From Ktedonobacteraceae bacterium (lineage in GTDB: Bacteria; Chloroflexota; Ktedonobacteria; Ktedonobacterales; Ktedonobacteraceae), in the NCBI GenBank assembly GCA_014896635.1, contig JADBKA010000081.1:1-20195 (forward strand): a stretch of DNA of 20,195 bases. Reading direction: 5' to 3'. Below the pieces are notes generated by a model that ran no database searches, was not told the DNA's origin, and saw only the letters and a list, made by a program, of their open reading frames with translations. The translations under genes were made by a program, and so were the position numbers. The first letter of the stretch is position 1. Each line of letters opens with the position of its first letter. Below are positions 14,551-20,195 of this stretch, piece after piece.

Positions 14551-15927
14551 TCAGGATGCAGCTTGCGGCAGCGCGTTGCGCAAATCGTTCACTTTCGCAT
14601 CGCGTGATCCTAGATCCTTCAAACCCCAACGTACTTCAATAGTGCGCAGGATCGAAGTCGTATCATACGTCGTGTGATCAATGGCGTGCTGCTTTGCAAA
14701 AGGTGAAATGATAATAGTGGGTACGCGCGTCCCCGGACCCCAGCGATCACCAGTCGGCGGCGCCACGTGATCCCAGCGTCCGCCATTCTCGTCATACGTG
14801 ATGATAATGGCAGTGTCTTTCCAGTATTGACTGTTCTGCACCTGCTGCACCAGGTCAGCAATGTGCTGCTGGCCAGCCAGCAGATTCGCATAGCCCGGAT
14901 GTTCGTTATCCTTCCCCAGTGGTTTCACGAAGGAGACGGCGGGCAGGTTTCCGTTTTTCAAGGCGCTGATAAAGTCCTGCTCATCTTTGAGATGCTCTGT
15001 TTTCGCCGGCTTGCCATCGGCATAGTTTGCGAAGAATGCAAGCGGCTGGTGATGAAACTGGAATAGCTTATCGGGATGGCCGGCGAGCGCATCATTCCAG
15101 CCGCCGGAATACCAGGCCCAGGAGATGTTCTTCTCGCTCAGCCGGTCTCCGATATTCGGCATGGTCTGCAAAGGCACCAGCGTCTCAGGTTTGGCAAAGG
15201 TCGGGTGCGGGGTATTGACGGTGAATGAGGTATTGACAACGTAGCCGTCGGGAGTGACCTGGCCGTCTTTGATCATCTTGCCGTTGCTATCAAGCTTGGC
15301 TACCATGCTTGCCGGCGCGTTCGGGAATGTCGGTGTGCAGGCGCAGACAAGCCAGAAATGGTTGAGGAACGAACCACCGAAAGCCGCGTGGAAGAAGTGG
15401 TCGGCCATCGTATACTGCTGGGCCAGCTTGCCCTCTGGCAGATTCGTCGCGTCATAATAGCTCATGACCAGGCCAGCGGCATCGCTCCATGCCACAAATT
15501 TGTCCATCTTGCCCCCGTCGATCTGGTACTGCTGCTGGTAGAAACGATGCACGAGATCGCCGGTCGTTGCACCGGGAGGGACATACTTTGCGGCATCAAA
15601 AGGTTTGACGGGCAAATCGGCTGGAAAGCGTGAGTCGGGCTTACCATTGTTCAACGGTTGCGGCAGAGTCTTATAGGGTTTGCCATCCCTGTCTACCTGC
15701 TGCAAAGATGTTGGATCGGCATTGCTGATGCCGTCCGCGCCGGGAAACAGCCCGTACAGGCTATCAAAGCTCCAGTTCTCCTGGTACAGGATAATAAAAT
15801 GATTGATTTTGCCAAAGGGATTGGCCGCAGGTGTCGTATTCTGATTTGATGCGGCAGAGCTGGAAGCGCAGCCCGCCAGCAGACCACAGATAATGAAAAG
15901 GCTCAGTACAACTGAACGAAAACGCAT
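14551..15927 (-). CDS. Phosphoesterase-family lipoprotein (phospholipase C / acid phosphatase type)
   Basis: Protein of 458 residues. The signal peptide ends in LAGC with lipidated Cys20, followed by a Ser/Ala/Asn-rich linker, so it should sit on the outer face of the membrane. The catalytic domain belongs to the phosphoesterase family PF04185, which includes phospholipase C and AcpA-type acid phosphatases. The metal-binding N-terminal motif is ENWSFDSLYG (50-59, commonly ENRSFD) and the C-terminal metal site is TYDENGGRWDHVAPP (about residue 375-390). The substrate (phospholipid or soluble phosphate ester) cannot be told apart by sequence alone. It is monocistronic by layout, with its own terminator and a 468-nt region upstream. 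Confidence 0.88.
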   Translation of the reverse strand: MRFRSVVLSLFIICGLLAGCASSSAASNQNTTPAANPFGKINHFIILYQENWSFDSLYGLFPGADGISNADPTSLQQVDRDGKPYKTLPQPLNNGKPDSRFPADLPVKPFDAAKYVPPGATTGDLVHRFYQQQYQIDGGKMDKFVAWSDAAGLVMSYYDATNLPEGKLAQQYTMADHFFHAAFGGSFLNHFWLVCACTPTFPNAPASMVAKLDSNGKMIKDGQVTPDGYVVNTSFTVNTPHPTFAKPETLVPLQTMPNIGDRLSEKNISWAWYSGGWNDALAGHPDKLFQFHHQPLAFFANYADGKPAKTEHLKDEQDFISALKNGNLPAVSFVKPLGKDNEHPGYANLLAGQQHIADLVQQVQNSQYWKDTAIIITYDENGGRWDHVAPPTGDRWGPGTRVPTIIISPFAKQHAIDHTTYDTTSILRTIEVRWGLKDLGSRDAKVNDLRNALPQAAS

Positions 15928-16018
15928 GGTTACTTCCTTCCATCAAACAGATAAGAGGCTAAAATAACCGACTCCGGGACCCTGCATGAGTACCTACTAT
16001 GATTAAAAGCGTTTAATG

Positions 16019-16036
16019 TTATCACAGCATTATCAC
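16019..16036. repeat. Tandem heptamer TTATCAC in the phosphoesterase/sigma intergenic region
   Basis: TTATCAC occurs at 16019-16025 and 16030-16036, start points 11 bp apart, about one helical turn. It lies about 90 nt upstream of the phosphoesterase start and 55 nt upstream of the plus-strand promoter. Such spacing suits a direct-repeat operator, but no regulator is known. The rest of 15928-16088 is AT-rich and shows no gene. Confidence 0.35.
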
Positions 16037-16088
16037 AAAGATATCTTTTTGTTAAAGCTGTCGGAAGACGAGAAAAGGCGAATCGGCC

Positions 16089-16117
16089 TTGAAATTTGCT
16101 CCTGTAACAGGTATAAT
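16089..16117 (+). promoter_or_regulatory. Sigma-70-type promoter of the sigma factor/Rieske operon
   Basis: TTGAAA (16089-16094), 17-nt spacer, perfect TATAAT (16112-16117). The start would be near 16124, giving a leader of about 270 nt that contains the whole 111-bp palindrome at 16168-16278. Being a housekeeping-type promoter, it suggests that the operon is not solely self-activated by its own sigma factor. Confidence 0.7.
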
Positions 16118-16167
16118 AGGTGATACAGAGCCTGATAAGGAATTAAAAATCTCAGAAAACATCTTCC

Positions 16168-16278
16168 AGGTGGGTTGTGTTTCGCCCCTGCCATCGTTAG
16201 AGTGGCTGGCAAAACCGGACAGGTTTAAAACAAAAGACCTTCCTGATTCTGGCAGGGGTGTGCAAGCACAACCCACCT
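16168..16278. repeat. 111-bp imperfect palindrome, MITE-like or attenuator hairpin
   Basis: AGGTGGGTTGTG (16168-16179) is the exact inverse of CACAACCCACCT (16267-16278), and CCCCTGCC (16185-16192) is the inverse of GGCAGGGG (16251-16258). The arms are 25 and 28 bp and differ only in a short middle (TTTCG against TGTGCAAG). The 58-nt centre is not complementary, apart from a small AAACC/GGTTT hairpin. No target-site duplication was found. TTTCTTCTT follows the right arm, so in RNA this could also act as a leader hairpin with partial terminator character. Confidence 0.7.
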
Positions 16279-16395
16279 TTCTTCTTCCCCTGTAACCATT
16301 CCCCGTAATAATATTTGCCAGGGAGAATTCTTCTCGGTTCAACCCGCTTGCCAGCGGTGAGACACAGATCGAAGAATCCCGGCGGGGAGAGCGTT

Positions 16396-17004
16396 GTGAG
16401 CACAGCATGCACCGGAAATACCGATGATACAGGGCCGGAGAAAGCTGTAGAGCAATACGGAAAACAGAAGAGTCAAAAGCAGCAGAATAAGCTGGATACG
16501 CAAGAATTACAAACGTTCTATGAGGAACATCTTGCCCTGATTTATCGCTATATTTATAGCCGCGTGGGCAACCGCGAAGAAGCCGAGGATTTGACGTCTC
16601 AGACGTTCATTAAAGCTGTACGCAATATGGACCATGAGCGCAGCCCGCAGAGCATGCAGAAATGGCTTTTTCAGGTGGCACGAACCACTGTCGCCGATTA
16701 CTGGCGCGCCTATTATCGCGTCCCGGTCAGCTCGCTTGAAGAGTTGCTTGATTCTGGCTGGGAAGGCCCGCTAGAGGAGCGGTCCGTGTCCATAACCACC
16801 GCGCCTGAAGAACAGGTACAGCGTATTTTATCAGCTCTGCCTGAACATTATCGTGAAGTGCTTATCTGTCGTTTTTTGCTCAACTTGTCTATCAAAGACA
16901 CAGCGAAACGCATGGGCCTGACGGAAGCAAACGTCAAGGTGCTACAGTTTCGCGCACTCAAGCGCGCTGCTGAACTGGAGACACTGATTGTGGAGCCCCG
17001 GTAA
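16396..17004 (+). CDS. ECF-type RNA polymerase sigma factor
   Basis: A 202-residue protein from GTG at 16396, chosen because GGGGAG lies 6 nt upstream; the frame opens at a TTG at 16315 without a good site. Sigma region 2 (about 38-103) reads FYEEHLALIYRYIYSRV, then AEDLTSQTFIKAV, then the region 2.4 part WLFQVARTTVADYWR. Region 4 (about 140-191) reads LSALPEHYREVLICRFL, then SIKDTAKRMGLTEANVKVLQFRALKRA, a normal helix-turn-helix. Regions 1 and 3 are missing, as expected of ECF factors. The 35-residue N-terminal tail is polar. The next gene encodes a membrane protein with a long cytoplasmic part that could be its regulator; this is inferred from position. Confidence 0.9.
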   Translation: MSTACTGNTDDTGPEKAVEQYGKQKSQKQQNKLDTQELQTFYEEHLALIYRYIYSRVGNREEAEDLTSQTFIKAVRNMDHERSPQSMQKWLFQVARTTVADYWRAYYRVPVSSLEELLDSGWEGPLEERSVSITTAPEEQVQRILSALPEHYREVLICRFLLNLSIKDTAKRMGLTEANVKVLQFRALKRAAELETLIVEPR

Positions 17005-17054
17005 AGTAGAGCGACGGAGTGGAAGAAGGACGACTATCACAGCGGAGAAAGGCT

Positions 17055-17972
17055 ATGCCAGGCGAAGACCAGGAACGCTTTGAGGATTATCTGGAACTGG
17101 AACGCTACATCGAAGGATTGCAGAAGGGGGAGGGAGTGCATCCACCGGAGAATCTGACGCCTGCGCAGGCTCGTATCTACCGCATGGCGGCGCTGTTCCA
17201 TGCGACTTCATCACAGGCTGGCATACCACGCCTACAGTTCGTCGAAGCTCTGCGTGATCGCCTGCTGGCGATGGAAGAGCATGAGCCATCCCTGCCAGAA
17301 CACAATCAACAGGATGGGCCGTCAGAAACCGCGTCTGTTGCGCGTAGTGAGATGCCAGGACCGGGAGAGCAGGCAATGACTGCTGTGCATGAGACGGGAG
17401 AGGTTGAGGAACAGCGGTCTCACACACGCAGAAATGCGCGTTTCTTCTCACGGCGCTCGCTACTGGCAGGGGGCGCGGTTGCGGCGGCTTCACTGGCAGC
17501 CGGAGCGGGCCTGGGCGCGGCTCTCACTTCGGCGCAGCATTCCACGTCGAATGGCAGCAATCCAGGCGTGTCATATGGGACGGTCTATCAATCGACGCCG
17601 CTGGTGCCGGGTGGTCCTGGGGGCATTCCCACAACCTGGCACTTTGTGACAACCGTTGCACAACTGGGTAGTCGAGCGGTACAGTTCACCGCCGATGCCA
17701 TCATTGGATATGTTATACTGAAAGATAGTGACGAGCCGGGAGAGAAAGAAGAGATCATTGCCCTCTCTGCGGCCTGTACGCATATGGGCTGTATTGTGCA
17801 GTGGCAGGAGAGTGACCGAAGTTTCCACTGTCCCTGTCATGGTGGCCTGTTCGATGCCTATGGCCGGCCATCCGCTAAAGGACGGATGCGTTACCTGGCT
17901 GCGTTGCCGCGCTTGAACGTGAAAGTTGAGAATGGCAATATTTATGTCGAGGTGCCAAAAATCGATTCATGA
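17055..17972 (+). CDS. Tat-anchored Rieske [2Fe-2S] protein with long cytoplasmic N-terminal region
   Basis: A 305-residue protein (ATG at 17055 with GGAG 7 nt upstream; a GTG at 17019 adds 12 residues). Residues 1-125 are soluble: a helical block (FEDYLELERYIEGLQ, LTPAQARIYRMAALF, LQFVEALRDRLL) and an acidic linker. A twin-arginine motif, SRRSLLAGG (about 132-140), starts a hydrophobic Ala/Gly/Leu segment that should serve as signal-anchor. The exported C-terminal Rieske domain has CTHMGC (241-246) and CPCHGG (259-264): Cys241, His243, Cys259 and His262 bind the cluster, and Cys246 and Cys261 should form the disulfide. No cytochrome b gene is nearby. The N-terminal block has no Cys and no zinc anti-sigma motif, yet its position after a sigma gene suggests a regulatory role. 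Confidence 0.88.
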   Translation: MPGEDQERFEDYLELERYIEGLQKGEGVHPPENLTPAQARIYRMAALFHATSSQAGIPRLQFVEALRDRLLAMEEHEPSLPEHNQQDGPSETASVARSEMPGPGEQAMTAVHETGEVEEQRSHTRRNARFFSRRSLLAGGAVAAASLAAGAGLGAALTSAQHSTSNGSNPGVSYGTVYQSTPLVPGGPGGIPTTWHFVTTVAQLGSRAVQFTADAIIGYVILKDSDEPGEKEEIIALSAACTHMGCIVQWQESDRSFHCPCHGGLFDAYGRPSAKGRMRYLAALPRLNVKVENGNIYVEVPKIDS

Positions 17973-18400
17973 GACGACGACTGCTGATCCTGGCGCTGGG
18001 CGTCGGTTTCTTGATCATCACAACCTGGCTTGCCACTATGCTGAACGAGGTCATCCCGTATCGCTCCACTACCCACATCCAGACAGCGCAGGCTGGCCCT
18101 TACCAGATCACTCTCCAGGTTGATCCTAACCCGCCATTGCCCACACAGCCTGCGGTCCTCACCTTGCGTGTTGCTCGCAGTAGTTCGCAACAACCCGTCA
18201 CACAGGCCCGTGTCACGCTGGACAGCAGCATGGAGACGATGGATATGAGCAACGAGCACGCCGAGGCGCAGCTACTCCCCGACGGCACCTACCAGGCCCG
18301 GGTCCAGTTCTCCATGAGTGGTCCCTGGCAGGTGCGCGTCTCTGTTGTCGAGAGCGGCCAGCAAGTCCAGCACGTTGTGTTTGAGATCACGGCGCAGTGA
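17969..18400 (+). CDS. Membrane-anchored YtkA/FixH-like protein
   Basis: A 143-residue protein with one N-terminal membrane segment (about 4-26, LLILALGVGFLIITTWLATML) and an exported beta-sandwich-like domain. The pattern ARVTLDSSMETMDMSNEHAE, then LLPDGTYQARVQFSMSGPWQVRV, resembles the YtkA-like domain (PF13115) and the related FixH group, often found near copper-handling or cytochrome oxidase genes. The Met/His-rich stretch METMDMSNEH (about 88-97) could bind copper; this is inference. The start codon overlaps the Rieske stop (ATGA), so the two are translationally coupled and probably act together outside the membrane. Confidence 0.75.
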   Translation: MRRRLLILALGVGFLIITTWLATMLNEVIPYRSTTHIQTAQAGPYQITLQVDPNPPLPTQPAVLTLRVARSSSQQPVTQARVTLDSSMETMDMSNEHAEAQLLPDGTYQARVQFSMSGPWQVRVSVVESGQQVQHVVFEITAQ

Positions 18401-18501
18401 AACACTGCTTTAACTTGCCATCCCAGGCGCCGGTTATGCTGCTTTTCTCTGCCTGTAACGATTACTCCCACAATATACCATATCTGGAATGAAAATGGAA
18501 G

Positions 18502-19443
18502 CTATGCTTGTTCCAATGTCTCCTTTACCACTGCGGTAAGAGCCTTGATAAAAAGCGGATCGGTATTGAGCGATTCGGTGCGGGCAAACTGGATGTCATG
18601 CGCTTCGGCCTGTTCGCGTGCGGCGATTTCGATGTCATAGAGAATTTCGAGATGGTCGGCCAGGAACTGAACAGGAGCGATCAATACGTGAGTCTTGCCC
18701 GCCTGTTTCAGTTCTGGCATGATATCGGCAAAATCGGGTTTGAGCCATTCGCCGGGCGTATGGCCGGCGCTTTGATAACAGAACGTCCAGCGGTCCTCAG
18801 GTAGGCCGGCCAGCCCGGCAACGGCAGAGGCTGTCTCCTTGAGATCGTCGATATAATCCGGTTCCTTCTCGACCACGTGTTTTGGCATGCTATGTGCCGT
18901 CAGCAATACCGGCACGTGCTCGCGCACATCTGGGGGAAAGCGGTCTAGCGCTTCCTGTACGCGCTTCGCCAGCGCCTGCAAGAAATACGGCTGCATATGC
19001 CAGTCGGTAGCGATCTTGAGTTGCAAATCGTCTCGATGCAGGTCTGCCACGGCATCTTCCAGAGTGCGAACGTAGCCCTTCATAATGATCGGCGAATACT
19101 GGGGGGACATAATGATGCCAACCAGCGTATCGGCCTCGGCAGCGACTTCCGGGGTGACATCGGCGATGAATGGCGGCGAAAAGCGCATGCCCGCTGCAAC
19201 GCGATAAGCGGTGCTATTATGACTTTCGCGGTTCAGTTCACTCTGCAAAGCTTCAGCCTGCTCGCGCGTGATGCGCAGCAGCGGTGAGCCGCCGATCAGA
19301 GCATAACGTCGCTGGAATTCGGCGATGATCTCTGGCGAAGCTTCGCGGCCTCCATAGACATGTTTGAGATACACATGCACATCGTCCAGCGTCGCTGGCG
19401 ACCCGTAGGTCATGAGCATTACACCGATATGTCTCTCCGTCAT
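18502..19443 (-). CDS. hemH: Ferrochelatase (coproporphyrin-type HemH/CpfC)
   Basis: Inserts Fe(II) into a porphyrin in haem synthesis. The 313-residue length and lack of a C-terminal extension fit the soluble Firmicute/Actinobacteria-type enzyme, which uses coproporphyrin III. The catalytic His184 lies in LLTAHSMP and the partner Glu266 in FLADHLEILYDIEI, matching His183 and Glu264 of Bacillus subtilis. GGSPLLRITREQA and MSPQYSP are further conserved blocks. GAGGGAG lies 6 nt before the ATG. It follows hemE by 48 nt. No hemY or hemQ is in the window, so the coproporphyrin route is inferred from sequence type only. Confidence 0.93.
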   Translation of the reverse strand: MTERHIGVMLMTYGSPATLDDVHVYLKHVYGGREASPEIIAEFQRRYALIGGSPLLRITREQAEALQSELNRESHNSTAYRVAAGMRFSPPFIADVTPEVAAEADTLVGIIMSPQYSPIIMKGYVRTLEDAVADLHRDDLQLKIATDWHMQPYFLQALAKRVQEALDRFPPDVREHVPVLLTAHSMPKHVVEKEPDYIDDLKETASAVAGLAGLPEDRWTFCYQSAGHTPGEWLKPDFADIMPELKQAGKTHVLIAPVQFLADHLEILYDIEIAAREQAEAHDIQFARTESLNTDPLFIKALTAVVKETLEQA

Positions 19444-19491
19444 GGATAACTCCCTCTTTTCAGGTTATTGTTTCACGCAAAGTTTTCCCCA

Positions 19492-20195
19492 TTATCGCAC
19501 AGTTGCTTCATGGACGGCATCAACCAGGCGGCGTAGCAGACCAGGATCGGCATCTTTGGCAACGGCATGCCCGAAGTTAAAAATGTGGCCGGGACGGTTG
19601 GCCGCGCGACGTACTATATCGCGCATGCCCGCTTCGATGACGGGCCACTCCGTGAGCATAAGCGCCGGATCGAGGTTGCCCTGGATTCCTCGTGTATAGC
19701 CAATGCGCTGCCAGGCTTCATCGAGGTTTACGCGCCAGTCAACGCTGATGATATCTCCGCCGGCTTCGACCATTGCTTCCAGCAGAGCGGCAGTATGCGT
19801 GCCGAAGTGAATGGTGGGAACGCCTGTTTGCTTTACGGCTTCAAAGACACGGCGCGTGTAGGACTGAGCGAAACGGCGATACACGGCGGGACTGAGCATC
19901 CCTACCCAGCTATCGAAGAGCTGAACAGCATCGACGCCGGCGCGCACCTGGGCGACGAGGTAATCGGCAATCACTTGTGTGATCTTTTCCATCAGAGCGT
20001 GCCACAGTGCCGGCTGGCCATACATCATCGCTCTGGCCGTATGATAATCGCGCGAAGGATGTCCCTCAATCATATAGCAGGCCAGCGTGAACGGTGCGCC
20101 AGCAATGCCGATGATAGCCTGTTTGCCTTCTACTTCGCGGCGAATCAGGCGGATGCTCTCCATCACAAAAGGTGCGATCTCCTCAGCGGACGGTG
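19492..20195 (-). CDS. hemE: Uroporphyrinogen decarboxylase, 5' part cut by window edge
   Basis: Decarboxylates the four acetate groups of uroporphyrinogen III to give coproporphyrinogen III. The frame is open through the window end; the first readable residues are SAEEIAPFVMESIRLIRR. The GTG at 20166 is internal and not the start, since UroD proteins have about 345 residues and roughly 110 N-terminal ones lie beyond the edge. Visible family blocks are GIAGAPFTLACYMIEG, LFDSWVGMLSPAVYRRF, IHFGTHTAALLEAM, DIISVDWRV, RGIQGNLDPALM and HIFNFGHAV. The missing N-terminus would hold the substrate-binding Arg and Asp residues. It leads into hemH 48 nt later. Confidence 0.93.
   Translation of the reverse strand, partial: PSAEEIAPFVMESIRLIRREVEGKQAIIGIAGAPFTLACYMIEGHPSRDYHTARAMMYGQPALWHALMEKITQVIADYLVAQVRAGVDAVQLFDSWVGMLSPAVYRRFAQSYTRRVFEAVKQTGVPTIHFGTHTAALLEAMVEAGGDIISVDWRVNLDEAWQRIGYTRGIQGNLDPALMLTEWPVIEAGMRDIVRRAANRPGHIFNFGHAVAKDADPGLLRRLVDAVHEATVR

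Follow-up and report, generated by a model that had tools for sequence, protein, structure and literature searches.

Rieske clusters are known as electron carriers, and the locus described here raises the question of why a Rieske protein should be encoded directly behind a sigma factor. The locus lies in a 20,195-nucleotide (nt) stretch of DNA from a Ktedonobacteraceae bacterium (contig JADBKA010000081.1; the whole stretch is called the window hereafter). Open reading frames and Pfam matches place three genes on its + strand, in the order that a first-pass annotation, made from the letters alone, had given: a gene for an extracytoplasmic function (ECF) sigma factor (16396–17004, 202 amino acids (aa), matched by Pfam and NCBIfam, with a GTG start of our choice), a gene for a Rieske protein (17055–17972, 305 aa) and a ytkA-like gene (17969–18400, 143 aa), the ATG of which overlaps the Rieske stop codon. 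We consider it probable that this operon encodes an ECF sigma factor together with a transmembrane anti-sigma factor that carries an outer Rieske sensor, and that a redox or copper signal would release the sigma factor to induce genes behind a shared upstream motif.

Pairing of the sigma factor with the Rieske protein

Pfam matched regions 2 and 4 of the window's sigma factor (Sigma70_r2, 48 bits; r4_2, 50 bits) and no sigma3, which is the domain content of an ECF sigma factor. The best NCBIfam model was TIGR02952, the BldN family, at 120.6 bits; because this score is below the cut-off of 206, we term the protein BldN-like and not BldN. Its closest PDB match was chain A of 6dxo, which is BldN from the RsbN-BldN complex. 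ECF271 is given, in the accessible part of its source, as one Chloroflexi group of unknown regulation (PMC8999054), and the window's sigma factor may or may not belong to it.

A profile built only from the N-terminal domain of the Rieske protein (N-domain; 15 rows) was searched in 47 genomes of the class of Ktedonosporobacter (Ktedonobacteria; hereafter the class). The domain was matched in 39 of the 47 genomes, with 41 matches altogether. After leaving out L127, at a contig end, and L140, a chance match of 18 bits, 39 loci in 38 genomes remained. In every one of them a sigma gene lay directly upstream, at a gap of -47 to 149 nt when the longest frame is taken, and the protein had a Rieske part, 33 with the motif C-x-H-x-G-C, five with CTHM[AS]C and one (L110) with CTDMGC; the seeming lack of a Rieske part in the last six was an artefact of the search pattern. 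Because the profile was built from proteins of this kind, 39/39 speaks for constancy and not for independence, and the independent test is a survey of loci chosen by their sigma gene.

For this survey, a profile of the sigma factor was run on a sample of 301 Chloroflexota genomes with ten candidates scored per genome, and 98 genomes gave a match at 1e-30. Sigma factors of the class scored about 245–325 bits, partial and paralogous copies excepted, and the next score after the gap was 198 bits. Outside the class, we inspected the downstream region of 34 loci (about 123–197 bits) among about 77 listed sigma matches, leaving out weaker ones. A complete Rieske frame stood beside the sigma gene in 29 of these 34, each with a short N-terminal domain and most with a twin-arginine anchor. 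With start codons set by rule, the distance from sigma stop to Rieske start was -17 to 0 nt, and -4 in 15/29. The exceptions were L157, in which the Rieske frame is shifted, L153 and L166, which have no Rieske gene, and L178 and L186, whose partner has an N-terminal part followed by DUF5667 (below cut-off in L178). The N-domain seems to be combined with varied outer domains, as the partners in L178, L186 and L202–L217 carry DUF5667 or a similar domain. The co-occurrence of sigma and Rieske genes, which the first-pass annotation had named as a check, was found in 39/39 class loci and in 29/34 loci outside the class. The pairing is not accidental.

Six further sigma copies of the class (L168–L173) have no Rieske gene downstream, L170 lying at a contig end. 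In L168 and L171, from two Ktedonobacteria genomes, a sigma factor close to that of the pair is without a Rieske partner and is followed by what looks by eye like a large ATPase-like gene. A second Rieske gene near a sigma gene in L093 was set aside as unrelated; it has another architecture, lacks the N-domain by eye, and lies 500 nt 5' of a different sigma gene.

The first-pass annotation had also held that the Rieske protein does not belong to an ordinary bc complex, because no cytochrome b was seen. Pfam scans of the main open reading frames of the window found no bc-complex cytochrome b, and the Sdh_cyt matches belonged to an sdh operon on the opposite strand. Among the class genomes, 46 of 47 have a cytochrome b gene (PF00033), and none was found near the pair; it was on another contig or at least 2.4 Mb away in the contigs seen, many of them from draft genomes, so that a neighbour lying past the end of a contig may have escaped notice. 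In four genomes that were checked, the cytochrome b gene has a Rieske gene of its own within 2 kb. A role as a bc-complex subunit was rejected on these grounds, and the N-domain beside cytochrome b, an arrangement named beforehand as one that would speak against the anti-sigma idea, was looked for in the class genomes and not found. At least six of 120 listed relatives are named ubiquinol-cytochrome c reductase iron-sulfur subunit, and the name QcrA also occurs. The YtkA-like protein (PF13115, 52.7 bits, above cut-off) has an M-x-x-M-x-M motif that is also seen in 19 related loci. Its gene follows the pair in 20 of the 39 Ktedonobacteria loci and in none of L148–L187 (40 loci, each at most 4.2 kb), and we therefore rejected YtkA, which the first reading had named as a partner, as an obligatory one.

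The N-terminal domain and the Rieske cluster

Relatives of the Rieske protein align from the Met encoded by ATG 17055 and not from GTG 17019. This start leaves about 130 residues before a twin-arginine pair (residues 133–134) like that of the twin-arginine translocation (Tat) pathway, where an inner part of 125 residues had been proposed. Conservation is confined to residues 1–75 of this part (17055–17279), where 21 of 75 columns are invariant in 32 sequences (M1, Q6, R8 ... F62, L66, L70); residues 76–131 (17280–17447) have no invariant column and form a variable, probably disordered linker. In the same sequences S132, R133 and R134 are invariant, and so are 22 of 116 columns in residues 190–305, among them every cluster ligand and both disulfide cysteines. 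The Tat-like twin arginine and the hydrophobic anchor behind it (SRRSLLAGGAVAAASLAAGAGLG...) are encoded at 17448–17534, and this segment would cross the membrane, with the N-domain inside and the Rieske domain outside. The AlphaFold2 (AF2) model of the whole protein, made from a 45-row alignment, had a predicted template modelling score (pTM) of 0.49. It placed helices at residues 9–23, 36–52 and 60–75 of the N-domain, gave linker residues 81–130 block values of 46–50 in the predicted local distance difference test (pLDDT), and modelled the Rieske fold mostly above 90 and the membrane anchor poorly, at low confidence.

The Rieske [2Fe-2S] domain (17631–17957) was matched by PF00355 at 35.9 bits, above cut-off and solely in the C-terminal part of the protein, and its Foldseek neighbours were a Chlorobaculum Rieske protein, PetC3 and the arsenite oxidase subunit AioB. 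The C-x-H and C-x-x-H ligands are all present (C241, codon at 17775; H243, 17781; C259, 17829; H262, 17838), as are the disulfide cysteines C246 and C261. Both His ligands are kept in 38/39 Ktedonobacteria proteins and 26/29 others. A Ser and a Tyr raise the potential of bc1 Rieske clusters, in which the motif is CPCHGS-x-Y. The window's motif is CPCHGGLF, without this Ser and Tyr, which suggests a lower cluster potential.

Residues 1–75 contain no Cys and hence no Hx3Cx2C zinc motif, and Pfam gave no match to residues 1–82 even at E 10, in agreement with the earlier remark that the inner region lacks a zinc anti-sigma motif. We compared this domain with the partners of BldN-like sigma factors. 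A search for such genes in 119 genomes from the phylum of a Streptomyces gave a match in 17, and most downstream partners had an N-terminal part and a hydrophobic stretch; among four partners scanned for DUF5667, three were above cut-off. When 36 Rieske N-domains were aligned by hhalign against 17 of the RsbN type, the probability was 93 (P 3e-7), and the control, the Rieske N-domain profile against the sigma profile, gave 0.2. Searches of PDB sequences with the N-domain, as a single sequence and as a profile, returned no significant match and no RsbN. Going by this profile comparison, RsbN-type is the most fitting name for the domain, although the alignment leaves out helix 1, and the idea that it would be a new type of anti-sigma domain does not wholly hold.

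Some loci have the Rieske start in the same frame as the sigma stop, and there the two proteins can be translated as a single chain. We modelled the pair of L003, which is 80% identical to the window in the sigma factor and 64% in the N-domain; the alignment for the joined chain had 48 rows, five of them joined and the rest unpaired sigma or Rieske sequences. The model of sigma factor and N-domain (262 residues) had a mean pLDDT of 81.5 and a pTM of 0.74, with the inter-protein linker mostly below 50 and the N-domain blocks (residues 191–260) at 81–92. By our own estimate, three independently placed domains of this size would give a pTM of about 0.3 and two packed ones about 0.5. Against these values the three parts appear to be held in place relative to one another, and the sigma parts and the N-domain appear packed together in the model. 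Modelled together with the sigma factor, the last third of the N-domain had higher block values than when modelled by itself (81, 92 and 86 vs 61, 76 and 66), in a rough correspondence between different sequences and alignments. The sigma factor in the joined model was compact, with a root-mean-square deviation (rmsd) of about 20–25 Å to ECF sigma chains bound to RNA polymerase, of 10–16 Å over both domains to chains bound to anti-sigma factors (4nqw 9.9, 6dxo 13.0, 1or7 15.9, 6in7 16.4) and of 5.8 Å to FliA with FlgM. In structure searches with the model, the best 50 rows each consisted largely of sigma factors, alongside some chains of PhyR-type and other DNA-binding proteins, a result that bears chiefly on residues 1–170. 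Taken together, the pairing, the RsbN-type homology and the predicted packing leave the suggestion of an inner anti-sigma domain well supported by computation, as a member of a type that is not wholly new.

Upstream motif, putative regulon and a proposed switch

The window has a single match to GTAAC-N6/7-CGTA, where 0.07 is expected by chance. It is TGTAACCATTCCCCGTA at 16291–16307 (+ strand), 5' of the sigma gene, and has the form TGTAACC-N6-CGTA. GTAAC was found 5' of the sigma gene in 42/42 upstream regions of the class, and shuffled sequences gave 10.9 ± 2.7. After 11 near-duplicates were dropped, GTAAC-N6/7-[CT]GTA was present in all 31 remaining Ktedonobacteria loci; outside the class, GTAAC-N6/7-CGTA was present in 20/34 and GTAAC in 30/34. 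A position weight matrix of 61 pattern-picked sites had no position above 0.35 bits besides the motif itself. Of nine sigma loci without a Rieske gene behind, seven lack even a looser form of the motif. A scan for classical -35 and -10 elements as a spaced pair found nothing above shuffled sequences (best pair 4/32; shuffled maxima 3–4). ECF promoters have AAC in the -35 element and CGTA in the -10 element, usually separated by about 16 nt, and the -35 element of BldN is CGTAAC. The two half-sites of the motif resemble these elements, and the sigma factor may read them.

We searched the motif across genomes. In nine class genomes YGTAACC-N6-CGTA had 36 sites against 128 for the reversed control pattern, showing that the motif is rare. 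For 30 of the class sites a locus was available. The gene behind the site is the pair's own sigma gene in five of them, a Lipoprotein_15 gene in four (L220, L225, L226 and L246, the last adjoining a pair) and in one (L234) a cupredoxin-like lipoprotein gene matched by the halocyanin and plastocyanin models of NCBIfam below cut-off. Other targets were TIGR03118 (L244), a DUF7475-like gene below cut-off (L237), PALP (L229) and a dehydrogenase at 303 nt (L224); the remaining sites fall within long frames or are not followed by a clear target. In 18 other Chloroflexota genomes there were 50 sites against 33 for the control, and 24 of 30 site loci were readable. Here the targets included cupredoxin genes (L249, L258), a Lipoprotein_15 gene (L267), ferritin-like genes (L276, and L277 below cut-off), NHL (L269), DUF1800 (L251), MMPL (L257) and a sigma gene itself (L260); the remaining readable loci have no target, or one that has no Pfam match or was unscanned. 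The TIGR03118 (L244) and NHL-repeat (L269) proteins, of unknown function, are possibly members of the same regulon.

In three genomes (L308–L310), motif-bearing cupredoxin, Lipoprotein_15 or ferritin-like genes, some recognised by eye, lie within about 10 kb of the sigma-Rieske locus. Independently of the motif, cupredoxin genes are near the pair in L179, L182 and L183, and Lipoprotein_15 genes in L016, L156, L158 and L182 (by Pfam) and in L018, L157 and L184 (by phmmer). As a control, the eight class genomes without an N-domain match had eight sites, seven of them without a target of these kinds; the exception is a cupredoxin-like gene, by eye, at L313 of genome G021, suggesting that the pair may be missing from this draft or may have diverged. 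Judged from the genes behind the motif, cupredoxin, Lipoprotein_15 and ferritin-like genes plausibly form a putative regulon, and one with cupredoxins and other extracytoplasmic proteins would fit redox or copper sensing.

From the computed architecture, pairing, N-domain homology, predicted packing, ligands and shared motif we infer a topology, an inhibition, a signal, a release and a reading of the motif. The cytoplasmic residues 1–75, as a three-helix RsbN-type domain, would clamp the sigma factor. Behind this domain, a flexible linker and a Tat anchor that stays uncleaved would connect to the Rieske domain, which would fold in the cytoplasm and then be exported. If copper or oxidants attack the cluster, or if the cluster is oxidised, reduced or lost, the protein may be altered or exposed to proteolysis, and the altered or degraded protein would free the sigma factor. 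The freed sigma factor would then raise expression of its own operon and of the genes behind TGTAACC-N6-CGTA, a set of secreted cupredoxins, Lipoprotein_15 proteins and Tat-exported ferritin-like proteins, joined by the operon's YtkA-like protein in about half of the Ktedonobacteria loci.

Several observations weigh against this proposal. Eight of the 47 class genomes have no N-domain match, and five class sigma copies (L168, L169, L171 and the distant paralogues L172 and L173) have room downstream and yet no Rieske gene. The hhalign match spans helices 2–3 only (40 columns). The packing was read from the pTM and pLDDT of a joined chain, without contacts, an error matrix or a non-cognate control, and the covalent linker of such a chain can favour contact. 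In four of 68 proteins (L110, L159, L180, L185) the first His ligand is replaced by Asp in an otherwise usual motif (CTDxGC), so that these proteins may have a changed cluster or none. The half-sites of the motif are 6–7 nt apart, against about 16 nt in known ECF promoters. Most motif sites outside sigma operons have no recognisable target of the kinds named, and the variant GTAAC-N6-CGTA, with 43 sites in eight class genomes against 169 for its control, showed nothing but the pair itself, and no cupredoxin or Lipoprotein_15 gene, in the 29 of 30 fetched loci that were read by eye without a Pfam scan.

Two other roles for the Rieske protein have to be weighed. It might be a plain electron carrier outside the cell, for example to cupredoxins, whose expression the sigma factor merely tunes while the N-domain docks elsewhere. 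The intact Rieske domain, close to the structures of PetC and AioB, would suit this, as would the possible partners (cupredoxins and, by eye, reductase-like genes) near the pair in some genomes; we nevertheless find it quite improbable, given that one sigma subfamily is paired with the protein in many Chloroflexota, with overlapping genes, and that the N-domain is similar to anti-sigma domains and, in the model, lies packed against the sigma factor. Carrying electrons and acting as an anti-sigma factor are in any case compatible. A biogenesis checkpoint, in which the anti-sigma factor would report its own cluster insertion or Tat export and not the redox or copper state outside, also seems unlikely to us. 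A Tat-exported cofactor protein would be well placed to report on Fe-S supply and Tat capacity, and the Asp variants suggest that redox cycling may be dispensable in some cases, but the recognisable part of the putative regulon consists of extracytoplasmic copper and redox proteins, and the targets inspected included no recognisable isc, suf or tat gene, though no search was aimed at these genes.

The motif itself is less secure. The short spacing means that another regulator may bind there, or that the sigma factor uses an unusual promoter. That TGTAACC-N6-CGTA is the site of a different regulator, the sigma factor using other promoters, has in our judgement a chance somewhat short of even. 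Its spacing is about one helical turn short for sigma2 and sigma4 by the usual standard, and similar genes that look by eye like helix-turn-helix regulators lie near the sigma-Rieske locus in L308 (6140–6901) and L309 (8418–9152); on the other hand, GTAAC and CGTA look like ECF elements, GTAAC recalling the BldN -35, and the motif accompanies the sigma gene in the class and in most loci outside it and is missing from most sigma loci without a Rieske gene. The full joint reading, in which the Rieske cluster is an outer anti-sigma sensor in many Chloroflexota and the sigma factor also reads a compressed promoter, TGTAACC-N6/7-CGTA, before cupredoxin, Lipoprotein_15 and ferritin-like genes, is rather doubtful; the spacing of the two promoter elements would then be shorter, by about one helical turn, than that usual for ECF promoters.

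If the proposed switch is real, a Rieske domain as the outer sensor of a sigma/anti-sigma pair would give cells a new means of sensing redox poise across a membrane, and the bc1-subunit names on some relatives would be wrong. It may explain how extracellular copper and redox proteins are controlled in many Chloroflexota, and sigma factor, inhibitor, motif and target set make a defined system that can be tested in laboratory hosts.

Surroundings of the operon and known systems

A sigma70-like promoter match (TTGAAA-17-TATAAT, 11/12 by consensus scan) lies at 16089–16117 on the + strand, and its first base is the start of the stretch singled out in the first-pass annotation; three matches of this quality occur in 15900–18700, where 1.8 are expected. 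Between this match and the motif there is a 15-nt inverted repeat (16168–16182 and 16264–16278; AGGTGGGTTGTGTTT / AAGCACAACCCACCT) with arms 81 nt apart, and a pattern from this stretch, CAGGGGTGTGNAAGC, recurs 5' of the sigma gene in L003 and L004. An Rfam scan of the window at gathering scores, this stretch included, gave no match, and a tRNA scan of the window gave nothing. A weak terminator-like hairpin marks the operon end (18394–18408, +; four such hairpins found where 2.3 are expected). Downstream, hemH and hemE (18502–20166) on the opposite strand converge on the operon, an arrangement that is identical in L004, L007 and L008; upstream are acid phosphatase and sdh genes, also on the opposite strand. 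The named close relatives are mostly Ktedonobacteria (Chloroflexota), and one contig, L019, is labelled Proteobacteria.

We compared the proposed pair with known systems. QcrA, PetC and AioB, the Rieske proteins of bc1, b6f and arsenite oxidase, share its fold and ligands; the present protein differs in its extra N-domain, in the lack of a cytochrome b found nearby and in the motif CPCHGG/A-x-F in place of the bc1 form. RshA and RsmA are cytoplasmic and carry their cluster on the sigma-binding protein itself, and to our knowledge neither is a Rieske protein or transmembrane. What they have in common with the present protein is an iron-sulfur cluster in an anti-sigma factor, a [2Fe-2S] cluster according to the accessible parts of the papers on RshA (PMC3427169) and RsmA (PMC8346170). 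In the present case the cluster is that of a Rieske domain predicted to lie across the membrane from the sigma factor. Anti-sigma factors of the RseA, RskA and RsiW type (zinc, class I) follow a similar plan of inner inhibitor and outer sensor, a logic set out for membrane-bound anti-sigma factors in the available text of PMC7406223; the N-domain differs from theirs in having neither zinc motif nor Pfam match.

Among the open-licence PMC papers listed by the searches, none was on a Rieske anti-sigma factor, and an ECF group describing this pair may exist elsewhere. The closest likeness is to BldN/RsbN of Streptomyces (class III, 6dxo), in which a BldN-like sigma factor has its partner gene just downstream and the partner has an N-terminal domain and then a hydrophobic stretch. 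As far as the available text of PMC7406223 goes, in which the names BldN and RsbN are swapped, the inhibitor binds sigma4 through its first two helices and sigma2 through helix 3. The Rieske N-domain is likewise predicted to have three helices, the likeness to RsbN being detected in helices 2–3 only. RsbN-type partners carry DUF5667 outside, where the present protein has a Rieske [2Fe-2S] domain instead, and this predicted outer Rieske sensor is what differs from RsbN-like membrane-bound anti-sigma factors.

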